Source of the DNA: Agelas oroides
Taxonomy: Eukaryota; Porifera; Demospongiae; Agelasida; Agelasidae
Direction: 5' to 3'
Length of the DNA stretch: 64,000 bases
Assembly: GCA_949130485.1 (NCBI GenBank)
Contig: OX422188.1
Location: 8,788,443-8,852,442 of the forward strand
Both the position numbers and the translations under genes were made by a program. Below the pieces are notes generated by a model. It was given only the letters and a program-made list of their open reading frames with translations, was not told the origin of the DNA and ran no database searches. This document shows, piece after piece, positions 7,511-44,895 of this stretch. Position 1 is the stretch's first letter. Every line of letters begins with the position of its first letter.

Positions 7511-9530
7511 TCACTTGGTACACACTGCACAAGCCAGTTCTCTCCCAGCTGTGTATGGAGGGCATGCAATCCCATGGCAGGTTGCTTCCACAAAGTAGAA
7601 TAATGCTCCATCTTGATTTCCGGTACCTCCACGCACAGTGTCAGGGCTTTGATCGACGCATTCGAACATACTGCGATGGTTTTGATATCGTTCAGTCATC
7701 AGGTAGCCATTGTACTCCTGTGTCCAGGAGGAGGGGCAGGTGGTCTTTCCAGGTATCATCAGCACTGTTCCCCTGGTGGAAACATAGCACACTGCACACG
7801 GCACATTGTGGTTATGAAATGCTGAGAGTGGTCCATCTGAAGTCTGGTACTCTGAACCATATATGTGATCACGTTCCGTCTGGTGGCCAGGTGTATATTG
7901 TAAGAAGCTTGGGTCATTAGGTAGGCAAAGGTGGTTGGCTGCCCCTCCCTTGTGGTTGTAATAGCTTCCGGTAGCTCTTCCAGCATACACGAGTTGTGTT
8001 CCAGTGATGTTTGGACATGTGGTCCTCCCCCACCTGGTGTACACCACACCACCCACACTTGGACCAGGGAGACCTATGTCTCCTTTTTCGCCAGTGAGAC
8101 CTCTTCCCCCTACAAAGATAGTTGCAAATCACTAATAGTGTACTGCATATACAGATGTACATGAAAATTTCTTGTTGGCACATACGTAAATTGCACACAC
8201 AATGCCTTGAAAAAGGAATGTGTGAAGGCACTATGAGACAATACCATAGTGGTCGGTGATCATTTGGAAAATTGGAAAGAGCTCTAAACTACTTCTCAGG
8301 AATACTATCACAGTTAGGGAATCTACCTGTGCAAGCTGGCACATTGAATCAACTTCAGTCTTCACAAGGTGAAGCTTGAGGTACAAGCACAGTTTCGTAT
8401 GAAATGGGACAGTTATCCAACTTTGATGTCCCCAACTATGCAAGCTTTCCCCCAGGGCAACAGATAGTCTCTTCCCCAGACCCCACCCTCTCACGAAGAG
8501 AAACGGTCGGTGAACCAAGTCAAATTTCTTGGGCTAGCGCACACTTTTGCGACAGTGTCACCTAGTAATGTTCAAAACATTTTACGCCAAACCCGCTCAA
8601 AAAAGGTATGAATACTTGAGTAGAGATAATTTTACTGTTGTACAAGGGAAGTGCTACATAATAATTACAATCGCATTGGTCCTTACCACTTTTGGGGAAT
8701 AAGCCCAAGAAATTCAACTTTGTTCACCAGACTGTTTCTCGCCGGGAGGCACGCTCGGGCTGCGCATGAGACTAGGCAGCAGAATCCCTTACAAGACCAG
8801 GTTCTCTACATACGTACCTTTTGGCCCGGTAGCTCCCTGTACCACTATCCCTGGGTCTCCCTTCTCCCCCTTTGTTCCGGAGGGTCCGACTGGCCCTGGG
8901 AGTCCGTCACGACCATCTCTTCCATTGACACCATCTCTTCCATTGGTACCATCCCTGCCTTGCTGCAGCACTAAGAAAGGAGAGCCACTGTAGGGGGAGG
9001 GTCCACTGGTAGTCGGTGATGTAGGTGCTGCTGTGGACTCAGCACTCCTCTGTGGCCGGGAAATATCAGTGGCTGCCAGAAAAAAATTATCATTTGTAAA
9101 CACATGATGATATGCATTTATCACTTTGTTATGTAACAACATTCGAGCAATTATTACTGATGTGGTGTTTATGGATGGTGAATTGTTACCATTGTGTAGC
9201 TACTCCAAATAATACTGAATAGGTGAATTGTTACCATTTTATAAGGGAATGATACTGGGTTAATTAGCGAAAGAATTGCAGATTTAGTATCACATGCAGA
9301 AATGAAGGACAAGTAATCTCAAAATATATTTGTGTCATTGTAGTAAATAAGTTAAGCCCACAGGAGCCTACTCTGTAGGGTACAACTTAGTTGATACAAC
9401 TTACGTAGTTGATACCAAGAGACGAAACAAAGTTTATCAAAAGAGAGTTAAAATGTCTGTTACACTCACCTGCAAGTTGCCTAGCAACCAGCAGCAGGGG
9501 AAGAACAGCAAACAGCCGTACAGTCTTCAT
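7511..9530 (-). CDS. Short-chain (spongin-type) collagen gene 3, three exons
   Basis: Exons: 9470-9530 (signal peptide [20 protein letters not shown]), 8818-9072 (spacer from [14 protein letters not shown], then Gly-X-Y triplets [19 protein letters not shown]) and 7511-8109 ([18 protein letters not shown], then the C4-like domain, stop TGA 7511-7513). All junctions are phase 1. The total is 915 nt, 304 aa, an exact multiple of three. The gene is intact and is the closest relative of gene 2: the two share signal exon, spacer, promoter and upstream repeat unit. The expected product is a secreted trimeric short-chain collagen. The intron at 8110-8817 contains an inverted-repeat element. Confidence 0.85.
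8465..8774. mobile_element. Non-autonomous relative of the RT-bearing inverted-repeat element, in collagen 3 intron
   Basis: The left end TAGTCTCTTCCCCAGACCCC and following about 75 bases (to TTGGGCTAGCGCAC) match one end of the element at 40934-42109. The right end, with AGTGGTAAGGACCAAT on the opposite strand, matches its other end over about 100 bases. The central RT-derived sequence is missing. The flanks are GGCAACAGA (8456-8464) and GGCAGCAGA (8775-8783), a 9-bp duplication with one mismatch. It is a 310-bp internal-deletion derivative. Confidence 0.8.
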
Positions 9531-13530: not shown

Positions 13531-16500
13531 AGCTGCTGGTGGTGATACGTGAGACAGAGAATGATGATCTCACTGTTGTGATGCAGGAGCTCATTGAGAC
13601 CTATGCTGACCAGATAGGAGATGTGGCCGTTAACCTCTGTGCTAGTTTGGTAAGCCATGCATGTACAATGAGGAGCAGATGCTCCTTTCCTCTTCTCCTC
13701 TGTGCCAGGAGCCAGAATAACTGGCCTTTAAGTTGATATCAAAGCTAAGATAGTATCCATTATTGTGGTTCACAATAATTATGGCCCACATTTTTAAGAG
13801 TGGCAATGTCCTATTGCCACCATCTGGAATGGTTTGCCGTATGTACAATCGTGGTGCAAATCGGAAGACTTCTTCAGCAAATCAGTGCGCAAGGTGGATG
13901 GCTTTGAGCTTTGCTTTAGTCTTCCAGACCCTTCTATCATATCTTTCGGAGCTTTGTTTGCTGTGGAATAGTAGAAATGATTTCCGAAGTGGAACACTAT
14001 AAACTTTTAAGATATGTATTGCTCTGTGAAATGGCTTGCACCCAAAAATTTGTCATAAATTATGTTGTCTATGTTACTTAACCCATCACCTTCCAGCCCC
14101 TCCTAATGGCTTTGAAATGAGAGGTGGAATTCCTGTTGCTATGACATTGGGTACAATAAAAGTTCTATGGTGCTCTGGACCCCCTCAGTTTCATCTGCAT
14201 GATGCTCTGTTAGACATTTTGGGATCTGATGTTCTGGGAACAATTGATCTATCTATTGTGCAGGTTGACACCTTCAATGAGATTGTGGACCCCAGTGGTC
14301 AGAGTGATGAGGACAGCTACAAGGCTCTCACCGCACTGGGCATCCTCGCAGCAATCCAGTCTCTAGTGAAAGCCACCTTCAATGAAACACAGGTAAGTTC
14401 TATGGCCTGTCTGAAGTACTGTATAGTGGGTTATTTTTGTGGGTGGAAATTTTCATGAAGACCTCAATTGGGGGTCCTCAGAATATATTTTGCATGGTTC
14501 TAAATTTCTTGGCCTTGAAACATGAATTCAATATTGTGGGTGACAAAATATTGACAAAGTTTGCACAAAGGCTGATGTGTCAATGTCCAGCCTTGTTTAA
14601 CAAGCATTTTGGAAGGTCAGTGTTAGAACTGCACCACAGTACCTGGCTACTTGTACCTTGTACCTGACGGCATTGTGAGATGCAGGAAGCAAAAGAGAGC
14701 CACAGTTAGACACTCATGGAGCAAACTGAACTTCGGGGGTGGAAAATTTTGTGACTTGTAGGTTAACCACAAAAATTACTGCCCCATGAAAATAATGGTA
14801 CATTCTTACATGAAATTATTTTACAATTTTGTTGTTGTGCAGATTTATGTGACTGCAACATCATCACATAGTTGATGTTTGTAAGTCTTTGCTGCCACGA
14901 GAGGTGTTTTGCACTTGTGCTCGTAAGAAGTGAACCTCACGTTCTAGTTCAGAGTAGGAGCTCTGGAGCACTGTGTAGTTGTTCTCTAGTTCCGAGTAGG
15001 AGTTTTGGAGCATTGTGTAGTGGCTTTCTAGTGTTCCACAATGTTGAGTGACAAGGTCAAGGTGGGTGTGGACGCTATCTTTCATATGTACTGCCATCTC
15101 TTCCCTCCTGACTTTGTCTCTACAACCAGCAAATGAGTACTCGCATTCGACTGCCTCCCGTGGGCAGACGCTTAAATGATTATGTATGCTCCGCTGCCTC
15201 ATGGGAGGTACACCGCATTGGTTTGGACATTCCGCCTGTTGCTCCAAACACGTGAGCCAATGAACGGCAGTAACTTGATGATATGTGTCTTGAAGTCCAC
15301 AATATTCACATGTGAATGGTCGTTGAGGGCAGTTAGGACTGTGCTCTCTCAGGAACTGGTATCTTTTTACATACTTTTGACAGTGTGGGCACTGTATTGG
15401 TGCATATTGGCACTCTCCTTTGGGGTTCTTGAGGTCAAGATGAAATTCAAGCTGTTCTAAGGACCCAGTCCAGTTACACCCATGCTCCTTCAAGTAACAA
15501 TAAACCTTCAACTCGTTTATCTTGTTTCTTAGCTGTCGATTTTTAAGAGTCTTAAAACCCTGCTTCTTGCATCGTGGACAACACTGATTACCCTTCTTTT
15601 TTATTTCATTGGTGCACTTGTGGCAAAAGTGGTGTCCACAACAGCTCGTGAGCTCAGGGTTCTTCAAAACTTGTAAACATATTGGACACTGGTACTCTTC
15701 TTCCAGACTCTTGTCTACAAACTGGGGTTCAAAGTCAAAGCTACACCCACTGTCATAAGCCATAACGTATCTCCTCTCTGTAGGTTTATCTAGGTAAGAA
15801 AATATATCCATAGATTTACTATCTGAATAGGTAACACTTACCTAGGAACCTTACAGAAAGCCAGGTGGTAATCACAGTTCTATTTAACAACCACCGAGAT
15901 TGCGAAAGGTCTTAGTCGGCTGATTCTGTGGAATTCCCCAAGTCTATATTCATCTGTTATATTGTCATGTTTACTACTGAGGTGAATTACCTGAGAAAGT
16001 ACCTAATGAAATATGCATAAGGTATGTATGAGGGAGTGACTATGTACATAGCTGACTCCACAACTGGATTAGTGTGTCAGATTTATTAGGGTGAGTCACA
16101 CACTAGTAAGTTGAATGGTGGATTTATATTTTCACCATTATACTTATTCTTTTAGACTAAACTAAATGAATTTAACTCATCTGTGCACAACATAATGGTC
16201 CAGGACAATAAATACTAGGACGTCCTGATACAGCTAGCACTGGCAGTGTGAGTGAAGATGGCTACAAGAGACACTTAGAAGGAGTAGCTGGAGCAAGAGC
16301 ATCTACTGTATGTGGGCTAGAAGTGTTGTAGACAACCCTGGCTACTTACAGAGCACGGAAGGTTGCAGAGATTCTTTGATTGTCCAAGTTGAACAGCAGC
16401 GTATGTAGCATGCCTGCCATTTGTAAGAACTACGCATGACAAGCCAGGCAGTGTATTGTGTATTCAGACATTCAGTGTGTACAGTCAGCTATGGTAGCTG

Positions 16501-19500
16501 CCTAGGCAGGAGAAATGCTCCATTGTGTGATATCTCTTTATGTGAGGAGTTGTGCAGACATGTATGGTCCGTATGCTAGCTGCTCTGCATCACTCACTCA
16601 GGCTCACCCCCACAAGTGCTAATAGGCAGAGGCTTCATCATTGCAGGTCAAGCCTGAACAAGCATGCAGTATGCTTACTGCCTGTGTACTGCCCTTACCA
16701 GAGTGCAACCTACATTAACTGGTGCATATTTGTGTAATGTAAACTGTACCATGTAAGCATGCAATGATCAATCAAATGTGTATTTCATACTTTGTATAGC
16801 GAACATACTTCAAAAATTTGTCTAATAGCCCAAATACTCTGTGGGCATCTGAGCAACTCCTATGCTACGCATGTGTAGTTTATGGAAAACAAGGACTATA
16901 TGCAAGACACACAGGCCAGGCTGCTCACAGACAGCAGAAGCTGGCAGAGCTTAGGCCACTTCAAGCAAGGACTCTGTAAGAGCAATGAGCTATGCTATGA
17001 ATAGCAGCTAGTGTGAAGCGTAGCAAGCCATGTAGTAGCTCCCTCTCCATGGATGGGTGCACTACAAGAGGCAAATACAGCACAAGCCAAATACCTGCAG
17101 TACGTTTACTGGGGGGGGGGGGGGGGGGGGTATTGTATGACATCACAGGTCAATTTGAATATAAAGCTTCTTGTGCAATCACACATGTTCATATACACTG
17201 TCCATGTTAGTAAGTAAGGTAGTAATTTGTAGTGGTTTTACATTTTTGTAGTGCTAGTAGAGTTTCTTGTTTATCGAGCATCAGCAGAATTCGAGTGTAA
17301 GACACACTGTATCCACTATAGTCTAAAGTGACTTTCCAAACCTGGCACCACAATAGCTTAGATTCTTCTAAGATTGCATGAATTTGATATGCCCATATAA
17401 GGCAGTCATTGCTAGGTTTCCCAACTACCCCCTAAAATGTGCTACTGTAGCAGGTACGTCTCTAACAGATCCAAAACCATCCTTTCCTTTCAAGTGGCAA
17501 TTACAGTTTCGGTTCTTCCTTTCATTCACACTTGTTCTGTTAACTACAACTGATTCACCCTACTGGTAAATATACAACCAAGCACTTTATGTTCACATTA
17601 GTATACAGTTACATACTTTGGTCTCAAAATGCCATAGCAACCGAAGACTGATAAAAACTATTTTCTCTTCAAGGGATTCTCTTTTGAGTTCGTGTCTTAG
17701 TACATTCCAAGCATGCCAGGGGATCAAAGCTGGTAGCTTAAAGGCTCAGTTCTACTTAGTTAGGGCTTAGTTTAGTGCTTAGTGTAGACTGCAACCATAG
17801 TGTGTACCACTGTGAGGAGTATTGCCAAGGGTTGGTTTCGTATGTTGAGTAGTAGTAATATGGCAACTAGTGATAGGCTAGCGCTTATGAGACTTAAATT
17901 TGCAGACCCTGTTCCTAAGAAGTTCCTTTGCTGTATGTGCCATGAGCTCTTGACGGATCCCAGCACGACCAGCTGTTGCCGACACTACTTCTGTTATGAT
18001 TGTATCAGCCGCATTCAAGAAACCAAAAGGCCTTGCCCGAAATGCAAAAAGCCAAGTTTTTCTGTCCAACAAGACTCCCAACAGAAGGAAAGGATAAAAA
18101 CTCTGAAGGTATTCTGTCCCATGTCCGCCAGGAGAGGTGGCTGTGGGTGGATTGGGACTCTTGGAGAGCTGGATAATCATCTTAAACTGAGTGAGATGGA
18201 AGGAGAGTGTAGGCGTGTGCATGTACAGTGCCCACTGGAGTGTGGAGAGTATGTACCACGAGGGGATCTCGAGCTGCACAAAAGTATGAGATGTACTCGA
18301 CGCCAGTTTGAGTGCGTCCACTGCGGCTTTAAGGATTTTTATGAGAAGATTACCCTGGAGCACTATCATGAGTGCCTTGAACACCCAGTTATGTGTCCGA
18401 ATGATTGTCGTATGCCAGGCATCAAACGTCACCAGCTCAGTGACCACCTATCACTCAACTGCCCCCTTAGAACTGTACCCTGTGAGTTTCACTACGCTGG
18501 CTGCAATGCAGAGTTTATATACAGGGACCTGGGAAGACACTTAGAAGAAGACGTTCATAAACACCTCACTCTTGTTTCCCACCGGTGTAAAAAGCTAGAA
18601 GAAAGTAACAAGGAGCTCAAGCAGAAATGCTCAAAAATTGAAGGTGTGTGTATGGTTCTCCAGCGAGATATTCTCAGGGTGTCTGCTGATTACACTGAGC
18701 TGAAGGCCGAGATGAAAAGACATGCAGTACTTGCCCGTGGCAGGTTCACCTCTCTTCCCAATGGAGACACTATATCCTAAGTTACTCACACCAGATAGCT
18801 ATACTACAGTGCTCGCAAACATGTAATGCGACATCCCATATTATGAGCAATTCTCCTGTTTTCTATGTGTTTGTTATTTAGTCACCTTTTATGGCTTGTT
18901 GTATTGACATAAAAATTTGCTGCCTGTTCCAAAACTGCTGAGCTGTTGAGGTTTCGTTTTTGTAGTGGCCAAAGTGGAATTCTAAGTATTTCCATCGCTA
19001 TACAAGCAAAATTTACCTGTCACTTGAGTTGTATTTGAATGTCTTCTGTTGTAATTATATAGACTGGCACGAAATTGTACTTAGGGGATAACTTATACGG
19101 TGTATGGGGGTAACTTGTATGGGAGTAACTTATACAGTGGATGGGGGTAACTTATACAGTGTATGGGAGTAACTTATACAGTGTATGGGGGTAACTTATA
19201 CAGTGTATGGGAGTAACTTATACAGTGTATGGGAGTAACTTATACAGTGTATGGGGGTAACTTATACAGTGTATGGGGGTAACTTATACAGTGTATGGGA
19301 GTAACTTATACAGTGTATGGGAGTAACTTATACAGTGTATGGGGGTAACTTATACAGTGTATGGGGTTAACTTATACAGTGTATGGGGTTAACTTAATAC
19401 AGTGTATGGGAGTAACTTATACAGTGCCCTTTGCTTCCTTCATGACTGAACCTGAAAGACTGTTGTTCATGCATTGGTTTTATATGTATGTATGTATGTA

Positions 19501-36128: not shown

Positions 36129-38363
36129 TTACAGCAATGGAATAGCCAAGGTCAGAAGTGCTAGCACAATCGCAAGGTTGAAAGCAAGTTCATTTCTGGC
36201 ATTTCCACTTGTAGTTGCACCAGTGGGTGAAGGGTTATCAGGGTCAAACATCAGTTTTTCATTAAAGTCCGTCACTTCCCAAGTGAAATTTCCACATGTA
36301 CGCATTCCGTCTGGAGGTGGATTCTGTTGTGCTTGAGCTTCGTTTATGATCATGGCCATTCCTTCAAGTTGGTGACTCTCAATGTGGCAGTGAAGAAACC
36401 AGTAACCAGGGTTGTCCGAAATAAACTGAATTGCTACATAGCCTCGTGCTGGTGCAATAATGGTATCTTTTCTTATGGTATATTCATTGAGTGTGATATT
36501 GGGTGCACGACCCGGTCTCCACTGAGGCATTGTGCATGTATCATCATCTACAGTACCAAAGTCATTGTTACGGCATGTTATATCTTGAGTACTTCGTTCC
36601 ACAAAACCAGTTGTGTTGTCATATTCACCATAACCAGTAGCTACAACATGGAAACTGTGCCCGTGTAGGTGTATGGGGTGGCTAAAACTCCCCTCACTGC
36701 CAACTGCACTAAAAATAAATCGGATTGTCTCATTGTAGGGAATGTCCACTATAAATGAGCATTTGCAACCATCCTCGCAACGTTGATTTTCATCACAAAT
36801 GTTATCACCCATCTGCTCTCCCTGAGTTTGAGGAGGAACACTTGTGAAGAGAAAATTTCGACCATTAATCGAGCTTGTTCGATCAGCATGCTCAAATCCT
36901 AAATTGAAAAAGTATTCCATGGCTGGCTCTAATGATGGGAGTTCACTTGGTGGAGTAGGCATGAACAGTCGAATTCGGTGAAAGCTTATGCAGCTAATGT
37001 TGTATGATGGGTGAAATGCTTGAAATGGACAATTCAGCATTGAACATCCACTGCTTTCACACATTCTGGGGATGTCGTTGATTGACCCATACTCAGTTGA
37101 CATTGGTGGTTGTGTTCTTGAATAATGTAGAATTGCATGAGCATTGTGATCAAGAAATCTGTAAGGAGCTTGACTTCGAGATGTCGTGTTGATTTCTAAA
37201 GTTTCAGCTCGTATCCAGTAGTCGTTTTGTATAGTCTGACTTGCATCAAGAACAAAGTCATAACGTTCACCCGTATGAATGACAATATAGTCCACTTCAA
37301 TAGGCTCAGTGAGATATCCATCGATAGCTATCACTGTCAGCTTGTGAGCATCAATTGAGAAGCGATAGGCATAAAGCCCCTGGGCACCAATCAGTCGAAA
37401 TCTGTACATGCTACCCGGTTCCACTTCAAATACTTCCAAAAGTGAGCTTGGAAAGGGTACATTTGGGTGTCTTCCCCTGGAATTGATGATGCCTGACCAA
37501 TAGGGAACTGGACCAACTTCACTATCGTCAGGTGCACGTGTAGATTCATATACAGTGTACATGGGAGTAGGTACTTTACCAACCTCTTTTCCTTCAAAGA
37601 ACCCTAAACCTCCATGAAGCTGGGTAAACAAATCGAGAGATGCTTCTTCCTGCCAGTCAGACAGTAGCAGGGTGTGATCTTCTGGACGATCTACAAACTG
37701 AATTGGGTAATTTACTGCATCCCTTTCCCTAACAATGAGACCACCATACAGCCCATCAGTTCGTTGTGCACCACTGTGCGAGTGGTACCAAAATGTTCCA
37801 CTTGGAATCGCCTTGAAAATGTATCGGAATGATGTTGCTGGTCCAATTGGACAATGTGAAATAAGCCCAACTCCATCCATCCATGGGGTATTTCTTTGGT
37901 GCATGCCGTGCCAGTGGATTGATATTCCTTCCGTTGCAAGGTTATTAAGTACGTCGACAACAACCGTTTGATTTTCATAAACAATTAAGTTTGGCCCAGG
38001 TACTTGTCCATTGACAGCAATCACAGAACGATATGTGCTGCTATCAACAGTGATAGCATCAGTGCAGCTTGGATCAGTTACATTTAGACAGCGGTTTCGG
38101 TTTCGAACTGACGACAGAAAGCCATTGTTTATATAGAACACCTCACCTTCTGTTCCACGCATTCGACCATCTGGAGCAAGCCTGTATTTGGTGAAGGTCT
38201 GGAAGTGTTCAATTACGAACACAAACTCACACTCGTCAAAAGATGCACTGCATATGCATGTTTTTTGTCCATGATTGCACTCGACTCGTTCAGCTTGAGC
38301 TTGAAAGTTGCCAACAACCAGCAAAGTAGCCAGAAGACCACCCCAGAACAGATTTGTTGCCAT
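36129..38363 (-). CDS. Multicopper oxidase (laccase-like), intronless, probably secreted and GPI-anchored
   Basis: 744 aa from the Met of MATNLFWGG; an upstream in-frame Met at 38405 would put 14 residues before the signal peptide. The first 25 residues form a signal peptide. After a Cys-rich N-terminal segment come three cupredoxin domains. The four copper-binding motifs are all present: HWHGMHQRNTPWMDG, GTFWYHSHSGAQ, HPIHLHGHSFHV and GYWFLHCHIESHQLEGM, where Cys and the following His bridge the type 1 and trinuclear centres and Met is the predicted axial ligand. The last about 20 residues are hydrophobic (LAIVLALLTLAIPLL) after a small-residue stretch, typical of GPI attachment. It should oxidise phenols or metal ions at the cell surface with reduction of oxygen to water; the substrate is unknown. 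It has no intron, unlike its neighbours. Confidence 0.88.
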   Translation of the reverse strand: MATNLFWGGLLATLLVVGNFQAQAERVECNHGQKTCICSASFDECEFVFVIEHFQTFTKYRLAPDGRMRGTEGEVFYINNGFLSSVRNRNRCLNVTDPSCTDAITVDSSTYRSVIAVNGQVPGPNLIVYENQTVVVDVLNNLATEGISIHWHGMHQRNTPWMDGVGLISHCPIGPATSFRYIFKAIPSGTFWYHSHSGAQRTDGLYGGLIVRERDAVNYPIQFVDRPEDHTLLLSDWQEEASLDLFTQLHGGLGFFEGKEVGKVPTPMYTVYESTRAPDDSEVGPVPYWSGIINSRGRHPNVPFPSSLLEVFEVEPGSMYRFRLIGAQGLYAYRFSIDAHKLTVIAIDGYLTEPIEVDYIVIHTGERYDFVLDASQTIQNDYWIRAETLEINTTSRSQAPYRFLDHNAHAILHYSRTQPPMSTEYGSINDIPRMCESSGCSMLNCPFQAFHPSYNISCISFHRIRLFMPTPPSELPSLEPAMEYFFNLGFEHADRTSSINGRNFLFTSVPPQTQGEQMGDNICDENQRCEDGCKCSFIVDIPYNETIRFIFSAVGSEGSFSHPIHLHGHSFHVVATGYGEYDNTTGFVERSTQDITCRNNDFGTVDDDTCTMPQWRPGRAPNITLNEYTIRKDTIIAPARGYVAIQFISDNPGYWFLHCHIESHQLEGMAMIINEAQAQQNPPPDGMRTCGNFTWEVTDFNEKLMFDPDNPSPTGATTSGNARNELAFNLAIVLALLTLAIPLL

Positions 38364-38653
38364 AGGAATCAGCAAGCTATCACATGTATAGAGAGTACAA
38401 ATCAAACTGTAATTTCACTGCTAAAACTACACTCAGTTAAGTAACCGCAAGTAGTTTTGAGGTACATTTCAGTCCTCTCATATATACAGGTACTGTTGAT
38501 TTCAGCTCTCTTTGAACACTGATGCTGTAGCTACACAGTAAGCATTTCACTGACTTCATAAGTGGATCAGACAGAGTTTGTGGCTGATAAATCGTTGGAC
38601 AATTAACTATGCCCACAACTAGACTTGTGTTCAAAGGGAGTTGAAATTAACAG

Positions 38654-38868: not shown

Positions 38869-40648
38869 TTACCCACCGTTAATTGCTTCTGGTAGGGTAT
38901 AGGGTCCAGCAGGTCTAAACACCAGCAGAAACGTGCGTGGGAGGGTACAGGGCAAGGTACAGTTAGTACCTCTGATTAGTTGTTAGAACAAGGCTATAAC
39001 CTACCTGCAAAGATCCGTACCTTATAAAGGTGAACTGTACATGTACATACACCACATATAGTTTATGCATCTTGCATGCAGTTCAGAAAGATTTTAGCAT
39101 GGACCAATGCCTTTTTGCTTTACATAGTGCTTATACCTCTGGTCTGAGTAAACTCCCTTGTCTTTGTAGCAAATTCAGCTGTTGTAGTGTGTTTTCCATG
39201 ACTGGCTTATTGTTGTTTTAACCCTTGCTTTTCCTTTCTAAACATTGGAGTACTGTAACAATTGGAGTTGCAATATATAGTGTGGGAACTGTACACAGGC
39301 TACAAAAAATTCATTGACATTACAAGTAAAGAACAATGCTTTCTTGTGTGTGCATGGTAGCTACTCACGAACAGTGAAACAGGACCATCACGTGTACGAG
39401 CATGGTAGCTAGGCTGATTAAACACAGAGATACAGAGATAATAAATAATGGTATAGAAATAAATAAATGTATGAACCATGACATGTGCATGATAGTATGC
39501 ATGGTTACTAATAGTTGAGGTGAGGACTGGGTTTGGGGGTTATATATATAGGGGTCCAGATTCATGGGGACATCTGCTGTAAACCAGTTCCTCCCGCCTC
39601 TGCCACCACTTCCTTACTTCCTCCATAGCTAATGAATGCACTCATCCACCCTATATCTCCCACTTCCCTCTCCAAACCTTCTGTGCTCCTCCCCAACAAC
39701 AGTGCCATCTTTCACTCATCCTCCACCCTTCCATACTCTTATTTTGTGGGGGGTGATGGATGGTGATTATATAGTGTTTAAATAGTATATAGCTACTCAC
39801 CAGTTCAATGAACCCTGAAACTGGAGTAACCCACTCTGTAAAGTTACTTTAACTAAGTAGTTTTTGCAGTGAATTCCATCCACTCGTGTTCCTTCCATTA
39901 GCCTTTACCTTGGCAGGTCCTGCATGCCTAGTGTTGCCCGGTACTAGCATTGAAGGATTACGATACCAAGATACCACATGCAGCGAGGGAGTAAGTGCAT
40001 ACACAATCTTTTCCAAGCTAATACTTTCCGCCCCGCAGCGCGATGGATATCTCAGCCTCAGGCCTTTTGTGCGCATTTCGTGCGGCAAGCGACGAAACGC
40101 GCGACGCAAATGCGTTGATCTGCACGAGACTGCGCATGACCGCACCGGCCACGATTCCACGAACTGAGGCTTACCTTGTCGGGCGCTCGGTATAAAAAAT
40201 TTTTTTGAGACACTAAATAGTGACCTGGAGATCTGCAATTTGAACAATACCAGTCTCTGCTGTGTTTAACAAAAAGTGTATTCACATGCACTCGTGTACG
40301 GTCACAGCTTGAAGTTGAGTAGGTCACAGATATACAAATAAAATCATACACGCGATTACAAAACTCGCGACTCACCTGTGTTTTCAAATCATACACGCGA
40401 TTACAGACATGCGAGACATGACAAGATTACAAACCTCGCGACTCACCTGTGTTATGTTCCAAATGTTGAGTCAGATATCGCGAACCGTAATTTTTGTCAA
40501 TATCACAGCTCCTAAATAAATTACCTATGTACTACTCTGCTTAAATACGCCTAGCCAGTGCGCGCGCAAAAGGGTGGTACAATTTGCGCATGCGCAGTTT
40601 CTTTGGGGACTGTCCACCACAGTATAACAAGCATTCGGCTTGAATCCC
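38869..40648. other. Intergenic region with a MITE half
   Basis: No gene is supported. 39805-39871 (CAGTTCAATGAACCCTGAAA to TTTTTGCAGTG) is a single arm related to the ends of the element at 42739-43184. 40330-40445 contains a duplicated ATACACGCGATTACA / ACTCGCGACTCACCTGTGTT motif. A minus-strand open frame at 39849-40247 has no recognisable similarity. Confidence 0.5.
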
Positions 40649-40704
40649 TAGCCTCGTTCCCAGGCTCTCCCCGCTAAGGAGGGGGGAGCCTGGGAACGAG
40701 GCTA
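40649..40704. mobile_element. 56-bp palindromic micro-element with perfect 9-bp target duplication
   Basis: Arms TAGCCTCGTTCCCAGGCTCT and its complement ending CCTGGGAACGAGGCTA, loop around CGCTAAGG. The flanks are TTGAATCCC at 40640-40648 and TTGAATCCC at 40705-40713. This is the smallest unit of the family here: essentially two termini joined. Confidence 0.85.
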
Positions 40705-40933
40705 TTGAATCCCTACAAGACTTGGTGAAACTGAACTTGGTTAGCTAAGTCCCCCAGTGACTCCAGTCTGCTCTAACTAACGGGCACCTCCTTCACTATC
40801 TTTGGCACACAAAATTAATTTTCTGTATTTAGCATGCAACCACAGTGTTTGCACAGTCTGTACCCAGTGGCTTCACCCCCTTCTGGCTTATCTAAGGATG
40901 CTTAGTGTCTACTTTTTGCAATAGATATAGTAC

Positions 40934-42109
40934 TAGTCCCATGCCAAACCCGCGCACGCCCCCCAGCAAGAAATGGTCTGGTGAACGAAGTTGAATTCCT
41001 TGGGCTTATTCCCCAAAAGTGGTAAGGACCAATGAGATTGCAAGATGCCTGAGCATTTACCCGCAGCAGAAGAACACTTCCAAGGTTCTGGTGTCAACAT
41101 CACTATCCAGGGACATAGATACCTCAGTGCCCCTTTAGGGTCAAAGTCCTTTGTAGAAGAGTTCATCCGGGATAATATCAGCTGTTGGGGTTCTGAGATC
41201 AAACGTCTATCCGAGATCGCTAAATTCCAACCTCATGCTGTCTTTACCCATGCCCTTACGAGCAGATGGACGTTCCTCATGCGCACAACAACCAGTTCAA
41301 GGCCTGCACAGAAGTGACCACTCCCCTCGTGGAGCTCATCTGCCAACGGAACCCCAATTACCCCAAGCTCTCACGGCAAGAGCAGAGGCAAATGAAGTCC
41401 ACACTTTGCACAAGGAACCGAAGAGAAACCACCAAAGAGGCTGAGCTATTGAAGCCCAAACTATTAGGGGCTGGGCAAAGGGCAATGGAACAAGCCAGCG
41501 AAAAAGGTGCCTCTGCATGGCTCACAGCCATCCCCATGTCCAAACACGGCTTTAACCTTCACAAACAGGCTTTCAGAGATGCCCTCTGCCTTAGGTTTGG
41601 CTGGACGCCAACAAGGCTAGCTACACACTGCCCATGTGGCCAACCATTTAGTGTTAGCCACGCGTTTAGCTGCCCAAAGGGTGCTATGCCTTCTATCCGA
41701 CACAATGCTATCAGAGACATCACTACACAACTTCTCACAGAGGTATGCCCAAACGTTTGTGTCGAACCCACTCTCCAGCCGTTGACTGGAGACAGATTCC
41801 CCCTCAGAAGCACCAATACTGAGGAAGGCGCAAGACTTGACATCAAGGCCCTAAATTTCTGGGATGAAAGCAAACAATCAACCTTCTTTGATGTCAGAAG
41901 CTTCAACTCCCAAGCACCAACAAATTGTACTTCCTCCACCGACGCTTGCTACAGAAGACATGAACGTGAGAAGAGGAGAGCATACGAACAGCATGTCCTC
42001 GAAGTGGAGAATGGTACCTTTACTCCTCTGGTGCGCTAGCCCAAGAAGTTAGACTTGGTTCACCAAACTGTTTCTTCTCGTGAGAGGGCGGGGTCTGGGG
42101 ATGAGACTA
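40934..42109 (+). mobile_element. Inverted-repeat element carrying reverse-transcriptase-derived sequence, perfect 9-bp target duplication
   Basis: The termini are about 72-bp imperfect inverted repeats: left TAGTCCCATGCC...TTGGGC, right GCCCAAG...GGATGAGACTA. The flanks are ATATAGTAC at 40925-40933 and again at 42110-42118. The interior encodes, in two overlapping frames (about 41045-41317 and 41266-42039), the region downstream of the RT palm in a class of invertebrate RT proteins. A block after the palm (GSGVNITIQGHRYLSA, LTSRWTFLMRT) is followed by EKGASAWLTAIPMSKHGFNL, a CPCGQPFSVSHAFSC zinc knuckle and an endonuclease-like segment (ARLDIKALNFW, FFDVRSFNSQAPTN). The palm is missing, and about 60 residues seem deleted at the frame switch. 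No transposase is visible. Confidence 0.8.
41266..42039 (+). pseudogene. RT-protein C-terminal fragment inside the inverted-repeat element
   Basis: The longer frame, 257 aa, is open from the frame switch to TAG, close to the right inverted repeat. It has the Cys-x-Cys-Gly...His-x3-Cys knuckle and the LTEVCPNVCVEPTLQPLTGD block typical of these repeat-borne proteins. The catalytic RT motif is absent, so it is not an autonomous polymerase. Confidence 0.75.
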
Positions 42110-44895
42110 ATATAGTACAACTGGATTTGGAACACCCATTAAAAAAATTAACACTTGGGTTGCCTGGTCATGTTTAATCATTTCTAGGACTGCAAATAGG
42201 AAATAAAATTTGAGTGGCCTCACTCTCTGATATTGACATATATGTGTTGGGTACAGGACTATACACAATATACATGTTTCTCAGTTACGGGCACCCCCTG
42301 GTCCCATGCTGCCCAGATAAGAGAGGTTTTACTGCATAGCGATAGTCCACATGCACAATATAAACAGGATCAACCACTTCAGCCAGTCTCTTCCCAATGT
42401 TACGAAAAATTCCCAGCTAGGGTTGATCCTACCCGCATCAGGTTGCTGGCTCAGATGCAGTTACCTCTCACTGGCTGGATCCTTAGCCCATGTATCTTCC
42501 ACCCATGGTTACACTTCAGGATTCAATGACTCCTTTGATGAATGTAGTTACATGAATAGCCCAAGTTTCACTAGATGGCATTATTCATGAAAGGGTGCAG
42601 TAAACTAGACTACCACCATTTAAAAAACATAGCCACCCCCAAATTCCTATACCTGTTTTGAGCAGCTAGGAGCAAAGGCTACAATAACCCTAGTACTATC
42701 TATCTATGTAAAGGAGCTAGAGACTTGGAGCACACATGCACTGCAAAAACTACTTAGTTAAAACAACCTCTGAGTGGTTACTCCAGTTTCAGGGTTCACT
42801 GAACAGGTAAGTACTATTAGGAGAATTCACAAACATATCACCATCCATTGTTCCCTAACAATTCCGTCACGCTTCATTAGGAAGCAAAGATCTACCACAG
42901 ACACTTGTCTGTGGTAGCTTGATGGAATTGTGAGGGGGGTGATGGATAGTTTTTGAACCAGATAATAGCCACCAGATGGACCATAAGAAGTGGTATGCAT
43001 GTGCATTAGCTAGCAGACAAGTGTCTGTGCTAGCTCTTAGCTTCGTAATAAAGCTTGATGGAATTGTGGAGAGGATGGTGGAATGGTTGTAAATTCTCTT
43101 CATAGCATATGCACGAGTTCAATGAACCTTGAAACTGGAGTAACCACTCTGTGAGGTTACTTTAACCAAGCAGTTTTTTCAGTGTGTTCAACAGTGTTGT
43201 AGTAATGGTAGTTGTTTGTAATTATGCTGTAATGGATTACTTATTGTGAAAGTGATCCATGCTGTGGTTGTTCAGTCTGGCTTCCAAAGCTAGGCTGGAT
43301 GGAGGGTAGTGGCGTTAAATATTAGTGAAGCAGGTTTTCAAACATGCTAGCAATATGATTGTGTCTGCATGGCCACCAGTATGTGAATTTCTAACTCCAC
43401 AACAGTAAGTATGTAATCATTACCTGCTTTCCCAGGAATCAATTTATGCTGTAAGCAATTCCAAATTAGCGTAATTACATGACAATGGTCATGCAACATG
43501 TGTCGTGTTGTTACAAGACCACTGAACCAGTTGGTGGTCTGAAAACAAGGCTTTCAGAGATTCTATTATATGTGAATGTGAATTCTGCCTTGCTTGGATT
43601 GGGTTGTCTACTATCTGTTAATTGCAATTAGTAAGTAATAATTACAGTTGAAATTGTGCATATTAATTTACCAAGCAGCTTGTTTTGTTTGCAATTACTT
43701 CTAAATAAGTAATAATTGCAAACCAGCTTCCTTGTAATTAATTGTTGTAATTTATTGTTTTGAAGACTTTTACCTTGAGGTTAATGATTACATTAGGAAA
43801 TTAATTGACAACAACCCTGATGTTCAACATCAGGCATGTAACAAAGTTGTTGCAAAGGGTGCTTTTCTCTCCCCACCTATTTATGCTGCAGTACATGCAA
43901 TTATGTTAAGCAAGCACTAAAGAAGCAGCACTGTGCAAGAGCCGGGAAGGCAGACACCATTTTGCTGTTAGGCATTGCAGGATCACTACATGTGTACATA
44001 AATAGGGCTAGACTAACAACACAAGGTGGGCGTATTTTTCGAGAGAAATATCACAACTCTCGAAAATTTGCCCAACCCCCCTCCTTGAGGAGCCACTGAA
44101 GTTCATCGCCCTTGGGCATATTTTTGAGAGATTATGGTAATTGGACTATCATTAGCAGTCAAGATCTTGTATACTTGCCTGCATACCATACTCTAGGTAC
44201 ATTGCTTGCAGCCACCCTTTCAGCAGCTCATACTCTTCATAACAAGCCATTACTCCCATGATATTGTTTACCATGGTTGCTAAGCAATAATTGTACCGCT
44301 ATCTGGTACTATATCAGCACTATAATCTTGCAATCAGATGGTATCAGCCCACACTTATACTCCTTTGCAGGTTGCTTGTCCTGTGACTGTTAGCAACAGG
44401 CTGTGACATCTCAATTAGTGATTTGCAAGACTAGTGCCTTGACTGAGACTAATTGTCTGTTCATATACTAATGTGACAAACCACTATTGGGTATGTCACA
44501 CCTATTGCTAGTGCCTAGTAGTCACCAGACAAGCAACTTGGAAAGGACTGGGACCCAAGGCTCTACTCAGCAACAGTGAAGGACTGGGAATGAGGCTACA
44601 CTTCATACTCCCTATAGCCTCATTCCCAGACCTCCTCAGCTCCAGTGAAGGACTGGGACCCAAGGCTTTACCTACTTCAGCAGCCTTATACTCCCTAACC
44701 TCATTCTCAGGCCTTCTCCAGCGTTTGTTGTGAAAGCCTGGAACAAGGTTATATGCTGCCTTGTTTCCACAGTATGAATAAAATCAGCCATAGATCAATC
44801 TCTTCTGTTTTATAAACACATGACATAATTTTAACCTATAAAACTTGAGTTTTATCTCAAGATACAATATCAGTGGCATATAAACGAGTGGTTCC
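42110..44895. other. Repeat-rich intergenic region
   Basis: No gene is supported. It contains a 26-bp palindrome at 42892-42917 (ACCACAGACACTTGTCTGTG core), a hairpin at 43687-43723 (GTTTGCAATTACTT and complement), and a cluster at 44540-44760 of TAGYCTC-type fragments (GCCTCATTCCCAGACCTCC, GGACTGGGAATGAGGCT). Confidence 0.5.
42739..43184. mobile_element. MITE with about 70-bp inverted ends
   Basis: Left end CACTGCAAAAACTACTTAGT and GTTACTCCAGTTTCAGGGTT; right end AACCTTGAAACTGGAGTAAC and CAGTTTTTTCAGTG. A lone arm of the same family is at 39805-39871, and a diverged one at about 60810-60870. Confidence 0.75.

Follow-up and report, generated by a model that had tools for sequence, protein, structure and literature searches.

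A single-copy MITE-LINE patchwork in Agelas oroides with the look of a repair or decay scar

The element at positions 40934-42109 of the window (the whole 64,000-nucleotide stretch of A. oroides DNA that was analysed) is a clean example of transposon-in-transposon patchwork, in which the middle of a MITE has been swapped for a piece of a LINE retrotransposon. The membership of its ends in a MITE family with 9-bp duplications, the missing centre, the internal position of both LINE ends and the uniqueness of the junctions are direct observations. The locus has the appearance of a single scar left by repair or decay, rather than of a new kind of mobile element. The explanation placed first here, tentatively, is that of a single-copy 'Pack-TIR'-like scar, a break in a resident MITE having been patched from a LINE by gap filling; insertion of a LINE into the MITE followed by a deletion is almost as likely.

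Ends and target duplication of the window element

The element is 1176 bp long. Its inverted ends and perfect 9-bp duplication, noted in the preliminary description with an end length of about 72 bp, were confirmed: the terminal inverted repeats (TIRs) of ~73 bp at 40934-41006 and 42037-42109 scored 33 in local alignment, where the best of 1000 shuffles reached 13, and the left and right flanks are identical at 9/9 positions. TIRs of the family begin TAGTCTCGTGCC. The features of the two MITE copies in the window are:

40925..40933, + strand: left copy of the target-site duplication, ATATAGTAC
40934..41046, + strand: left MITE part, TIR ~40934-41006 followed by 40 bp of subterminal MITE sequence
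41047..42032, + strand: internal piece of a LINE-type retrotransposon, truncated at both ends, ~residues 640-1027 of the frame of the long LINE copy L033
41224..42039, + strand: 271-codon open frame, stop to stop, covering most of the LINE piece
41234..41235, + strand: loss of 9 bp from the LINE piece, compared with copies L002, L004, L007 and L008
41286..41287, + strand: ~166-bp deletion in the LINE piece compared with longer copies, with ~1 nt of overlap at its junction
42031..42109, + strand: right MITE part, TIR ~42037-42109, with GT (2 nt) in common with the LINE piece
42110..42118, + strand: right copy of the target-site duplication, ATATAGTAC
8465..8774, - strand: second, cargo-free MITE copy, with an 8/9 duplication in its flanks 8456-8464 and 8775-8783

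The window element matches elements of ~323 bp, such as L009-L013 and the copy at 8465-8774, over 113 bp at its left end and 79 bp at its right end. The left part showed 88-90 % identity to the copies listed, with matches ending at query positions 111-114. The central ~131 bp of the MITE, ~41 % of the element, are absent from the window copy, and a 985-bp LINE piece stands in their place. The copy at 8465-8774 does have both ends and no retroelement part, as had been noted; it is a full member of the MITE family, flanked by GGCAACAGA and GGCAGCAGA. It had also been offered as evidence that the retroelement-bearing unit moves, and since it is cargo-free it says nothing on that.

A high-copy MITE family with a 9-bp target duplication

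The genome assembly (259 Mb, 141 contigs) was searched with words from both ends of the element, allowing up to 3 mismatches. A 34-base word from the left part had 1380 matches (706+674) and one from the right part 1142 (571+571), with 0 matches for the backward control word of either side. The ends of the window element belong to a high-copy MITE of ~323 bp with a 9-bp target duplication. Its copies are short, numerous (well over a thousand) and nearly uniform in size (281-328 bp when aligned end to end); they carry TIRs and are flanked by a duplication of strictly fixed length. Flanks were compared in the 30 copies that gave exactly one end-to-end match, all others being left out (the flanks of L023 and L024 are identical). 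The flanking duplication agreed at 8 or 9 of 9 positions in 25 and at 9/9 in 15, as the preliminary description had anticipated for many copies. Mispaired flanks reached 8 of 9 in 0/870 cases and 7 in 4/870. Some of the five misses (L017, L082) agree by eye once the flanks are offset by one or a few bases.

The contents of the family were sampled at 80 of the 100 zero-mismatch left ends listed (C1 to C3:14.3 Mb; 1380 in total), 44 of which were classed by word spacing only and 36 by reading. For each of the former, a listed right end lies at a distance of 146-209 bases, and of 205-209 bases in 36 cases. Among the latter, 24 have both ends and no foreign cargo (L056 was called complete by eye), one (L059) has both ends and a nested insertion of ~410 bp, and in 11 no right end occurs within the stretch read, which extended to ~3.8 kb in seven cases and ~0.6 kb in four. 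A longer element may be present at those 11 ends, two of which (L075 and L076) appear to be duplicates of a single locus; 56 listed right ends with no listed partner lie outside the sample. No captured filler was seen in the 80 sampled left ends, counting the 11 with no right end in the stretch read, so the varied cargo predicted earlier did not appear there.

In L059 (G000:C3:3194800-3201000) the nested insertion is a LINE-like 3' piece with an (ATT)n tail, situated at the TAATTATTA site of the MITE.

The internal LINE piece

Seven close copies of the filler (L029-L035) share ~96.5-99.5 % mutual identity over their common LINE parts. Since they vary in 5' extent and have a common 3' end and an AT-repeat tail, the filler was assigned to a non-LTR retrotransposon. 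Compared with the close copies, the window piece shows 92-93 % identity in its last 746 bp and 90-91 % in its first 240 bp. The seven copies run 373-396 bp beyond the window break to the common 3' end; the window piece thus ends ~390 bp before the retroelement 3' end and is without ~85 codons and a short 3' region.

The longest open frame, that of L033, has 1112 residues, of which 452-639 give an RT-like match (RVT_1, E 4.8e-5, 23.6 bits, under the Pfam cut-off of 29.6). The window piece, whose residue numbers were obtained by arithmetic from alignments, starts just behind this domain, so the RT domain is absent. The earlier term 'RT-derived' accordingly holds for origin from a retroelement protein and fails for the RT domain itself. 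The 271-codon frame terminates at a stop just within the right MITE part; it had no Pfam match at E 0.01, and the L033 frame had no match in PDB at E 10. No nearby LINE parent was found: the only other copy on contig C6 among the matches listed is 5.4 Mb away and no closer in sequence than the others. At L021 and L029 a LINE piece lies near a MITE, the two being separate neighbours (in L029 the MITE is ~0.8 kb past the LINE 3' end), and L026 has an internal LINE piece and no MITE match.

The long copies L032 and L033 (G000:C20:2240900-2250800 and 2285800-2295700), with open frames of 798 and 1112 residues, sit between arrays of a ~192-bp tandem repeat, visible as shifted self-matches. Their C-terminal part has a C-x-C...H...C motif, noticed by eye, and possibly an endonuclease-like stretch.

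Junctions and copy number of the chimera

As only 40 of 1691 candidates were scored in the genome search with the window element, the junctions were searched separately. At up to 3 mismatches in 259 Mb, the 30-base word across the left junction and the 29-base word across the right junction each occur once, in the window. The MITE-LINE chimera is therefore single-copy in the assembly. No second copy of either junction was found in the 259 Mb, hence no sign of multiplication, and the earlier proposal that the RT-bearing unit moves or has moved as one finds no support. The left and right MITE parts and the LINE piece overlap by at most 1 nt at the left junction and by 2 nt at the right one (by eye).

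Gap filling or nested insertion

According to the favoured explanation, a break would have arisen inside a resident copy of the high-copy ~323-bp MITE, already flanked by its 9-bp duplication. Repair would then have used a LINE retrotransposon at another place in the genome as the template for a patch, the ends of the patch being joined at 1-2 nt of common sequence. Such a patch would replace the central ~131 bp of the MITE and leave both ends and the duplication intact. We infer both the repair route and that the patching took place at the window site rather than in a donor that jumped later. The attraction of gap filling is that a single event accounts for the loss of the MITE centre, for LINE ends that are both internal, and for the survival of the MITE ends and their duplication. 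The absence of the MITE centre and a filler with neither the RT-like domain nor the LINE 3' end speak for it, as do the overlaps of ~1 and 2 nt, the unique junctions and the similar substitution rates of shell and filler; overlaps as short as 1-2 nt often arise by chance. Against it stand the two further deletions in the LINE piece (~166 bp and 9 bp), the failure to find a nearby LINE parent among the matches listed, and a gap of ~41 % of the MITE, compared with a median of 4.6 % in the survey of animal Pack-TIRs (PMC8277862).

It also counts against gap filling that a nested LINE insertion followed by a deletion yields an identical sequence. A 5'-truncated LINE could have entered the resident MITE by target-primed reverse transcription, and one later deletion could have removed the last ~390 bp of the LINE together with the remaining MITE middle. 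This course of events is nearly as probable as gap filling. Variation of the 5' extent with one common 3' end in the seven close copies agrees with it, the left junction is what an ordinary 5' truncation could leave, the window piece already has two more deletions, and the LINE-like piece with an (ATT)n tail in the middle of the L059 MITE shows that such landings occur. It needs two events, however, compared with one for capture, and no LINE 3' tail, LINE target duplication or MITE centre remains at the window. The capture of a retroelement fragment suggested in the preliminary description is compatible with an internal piece standing where the MITE middle belongs; it is plausible, not proven.

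The ages of shell and filler were also compared. States found only in the window amounted to 22/746 in the LINE filler and 7/192 in the MITE shell (Fisher p=0.64; comparison set of 8 LINE and 25 MITE copies, with L033 and L038 left out on the LINE side). These states show no difference that would make the shell older than its filler; with similar rates, patch and shell need not differ in age. Compared with the family majority, the shell differs at 20/192 positions (10.4 %), or 10/160 (6.2 %) off CpG, and 4/26 MITE copies diverge more than it does. Gap filling in a resident copy allows a shell more diverged from the family than most copies and does not need it. Neither count on shell and filler shows which part came first. 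Changes found only in the window fell 6/3/10 on codon positions 1/2/3 (19 among 636 sites, L033 and L038 again left out), and they do not settle whether the LINE piece decayed before or after arrival.

Other origins

Capture could also have happened in a donor MITE elsewhere, the chimera then transposing to the window as a unit and generating the 9-bp duplication. The perfect duplication (9/9) and the agreement of the window-only substitution rates of shell and filler would fit, and a transposase acting on these ends would then be able to carry a ~1.2-kb element with retroelement cargo. This origin is nevertheless unlikely: neither junction has a second copy in 259 Mb, perfect duplications are ordinary in the family (15/30 copies), and a patch made shortly after insertion would give agreeing rates too.

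A class of RT elements with TIRs and 9-bp duplications, the other possibility raised at the outset, was rejected as highly improbable, since the retroelement-derived sequence between the TIRs, the one point in its favour, contains no RT-like domain, 7/7 close LINE copies read reach their common 3' end from varied 5' extents unbounded by these TIRs, and no captured cargo was seen at the 80 sampled left ends (11 with no right end in the stretch read).

Candidate transposases

The 9-bp duplication and TIRs of ~73 bp fall within the 8-11 bp duplications and long TIRs of the MULE superfamily. These features suggest a MULE-type transposase and do not prove one. Other superfamilies, such as KDZ and Merlin, also make duplications of 7-9 bp, so the combination is not decisive for MULE. 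Both kinds of transposase are present in the genome, with at least 119 matches to the MULE domain (PF10551; 150 of 194 candidates scored) and 34 to the KDZ domain (PF18758). A full copy with a MULE transposase had been named as a possible support for capture. No MITE ends were found around the MULE domain in the nine loci read (L059-L067; stretches of 2.8-6.2 kb, which may not reach the element ends), nor around the KDZ transposase in 2/34 loci read (L068 and L069, with the same reservation on length). L064 matches a MITE end over 24 bases (E 0.26) and L069 the MITE right end over 18 bp (E 0.1), outside the segment it has in common with L068; both matches were set aside as weak. L059 and L060 represent one MULE family, the MULE copy that adjoins the L059 MITE being almost the same as that in L060. 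The L059 MITE is a complete element in its own right, and so is the MITE next to the MULE in L061. L059 has in addition a second, partial MITE match.

A second, shorter TIR family, beginning TAGCCTCGT, was noticed in L051 (G000:C1:22389524-22393524), where a member is flanked (by eye) by a 9-bp duplication, GTAATGACC, and lies inside a MITE that is one of the 11 left ends with no right end in the stretch read, suggesting that the short TIR family and the MITE family use the same kind of transposase. A window hairpin at ~40645-40702 looks like a short member of the family beginning TAGCCTCGT.

Comparison with known systems

Patchwork of this kind is known, and the window locus adds a new case. 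Tan et al. 2021 (PMC8277862) reported 370 Pack-TIRs in 100 animal genomes and attributed single-copy animal cases mostly to transposition-independent gap filling. Microhomology of 1-36 bp (median 2) was present at one or both breakpoints in 67.6 % of cases, and breakpoints were skewed to the element interior, with a median gap of 4.6 % of the element. Like these, the window element is single-copy and has a foreign filler between the ends of a TIR element (the 985-bp LINE piece), short junction overlaps, interior breakpoints and an intact duplication. Its gap of ~41 % is larger, and its filler is a piece of a repeated retrotransposon and duplicates no non-TE sequence, whereas the survey apparently counted captured non-TE sequence.

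With plant Pack-MULEs, as described in PMC3903597 and PMC8277862, the element shares long TIRs, a duplication in the 8-11 bp range and a foreign fragment between the ends. It differs from them in that the cargo is neither multicopy nor a host gene fragment and no MULE transposase was tied to the ends. Nested retrotransposon insertions are common in maize and rice MULEs according to PMC3903597, and the window element resembles them and L059 in having retroelement-derived sequence within a TIR element; the difference is that both the 3' end of the retroelement and the centre of the MITE are gone from the window element. The family as a whole resembles the coral CMITEs (PMC2872659) in short and uniform size, high copy number, TIRs and a duplication of fixed length, whereas CMITEs have a TTAA duplication and short TIRs in place of 9 bp and ~73 bp. 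The locus also shows that a single scar can pass for a new RT-bearing TIR element at first reading.

Other features of the window

An uninterrupted 761-codon frame for a multicopper oxidase with three Cu-oxidase domains lies at 36129-38414 (- strand). Two divergent open frames at 14864-15841 (- strand) and 17788-18780 (+ strand), ~2 kb apart and with RING-like and zf-TRAF matches, possibly represent a local gene duplication.
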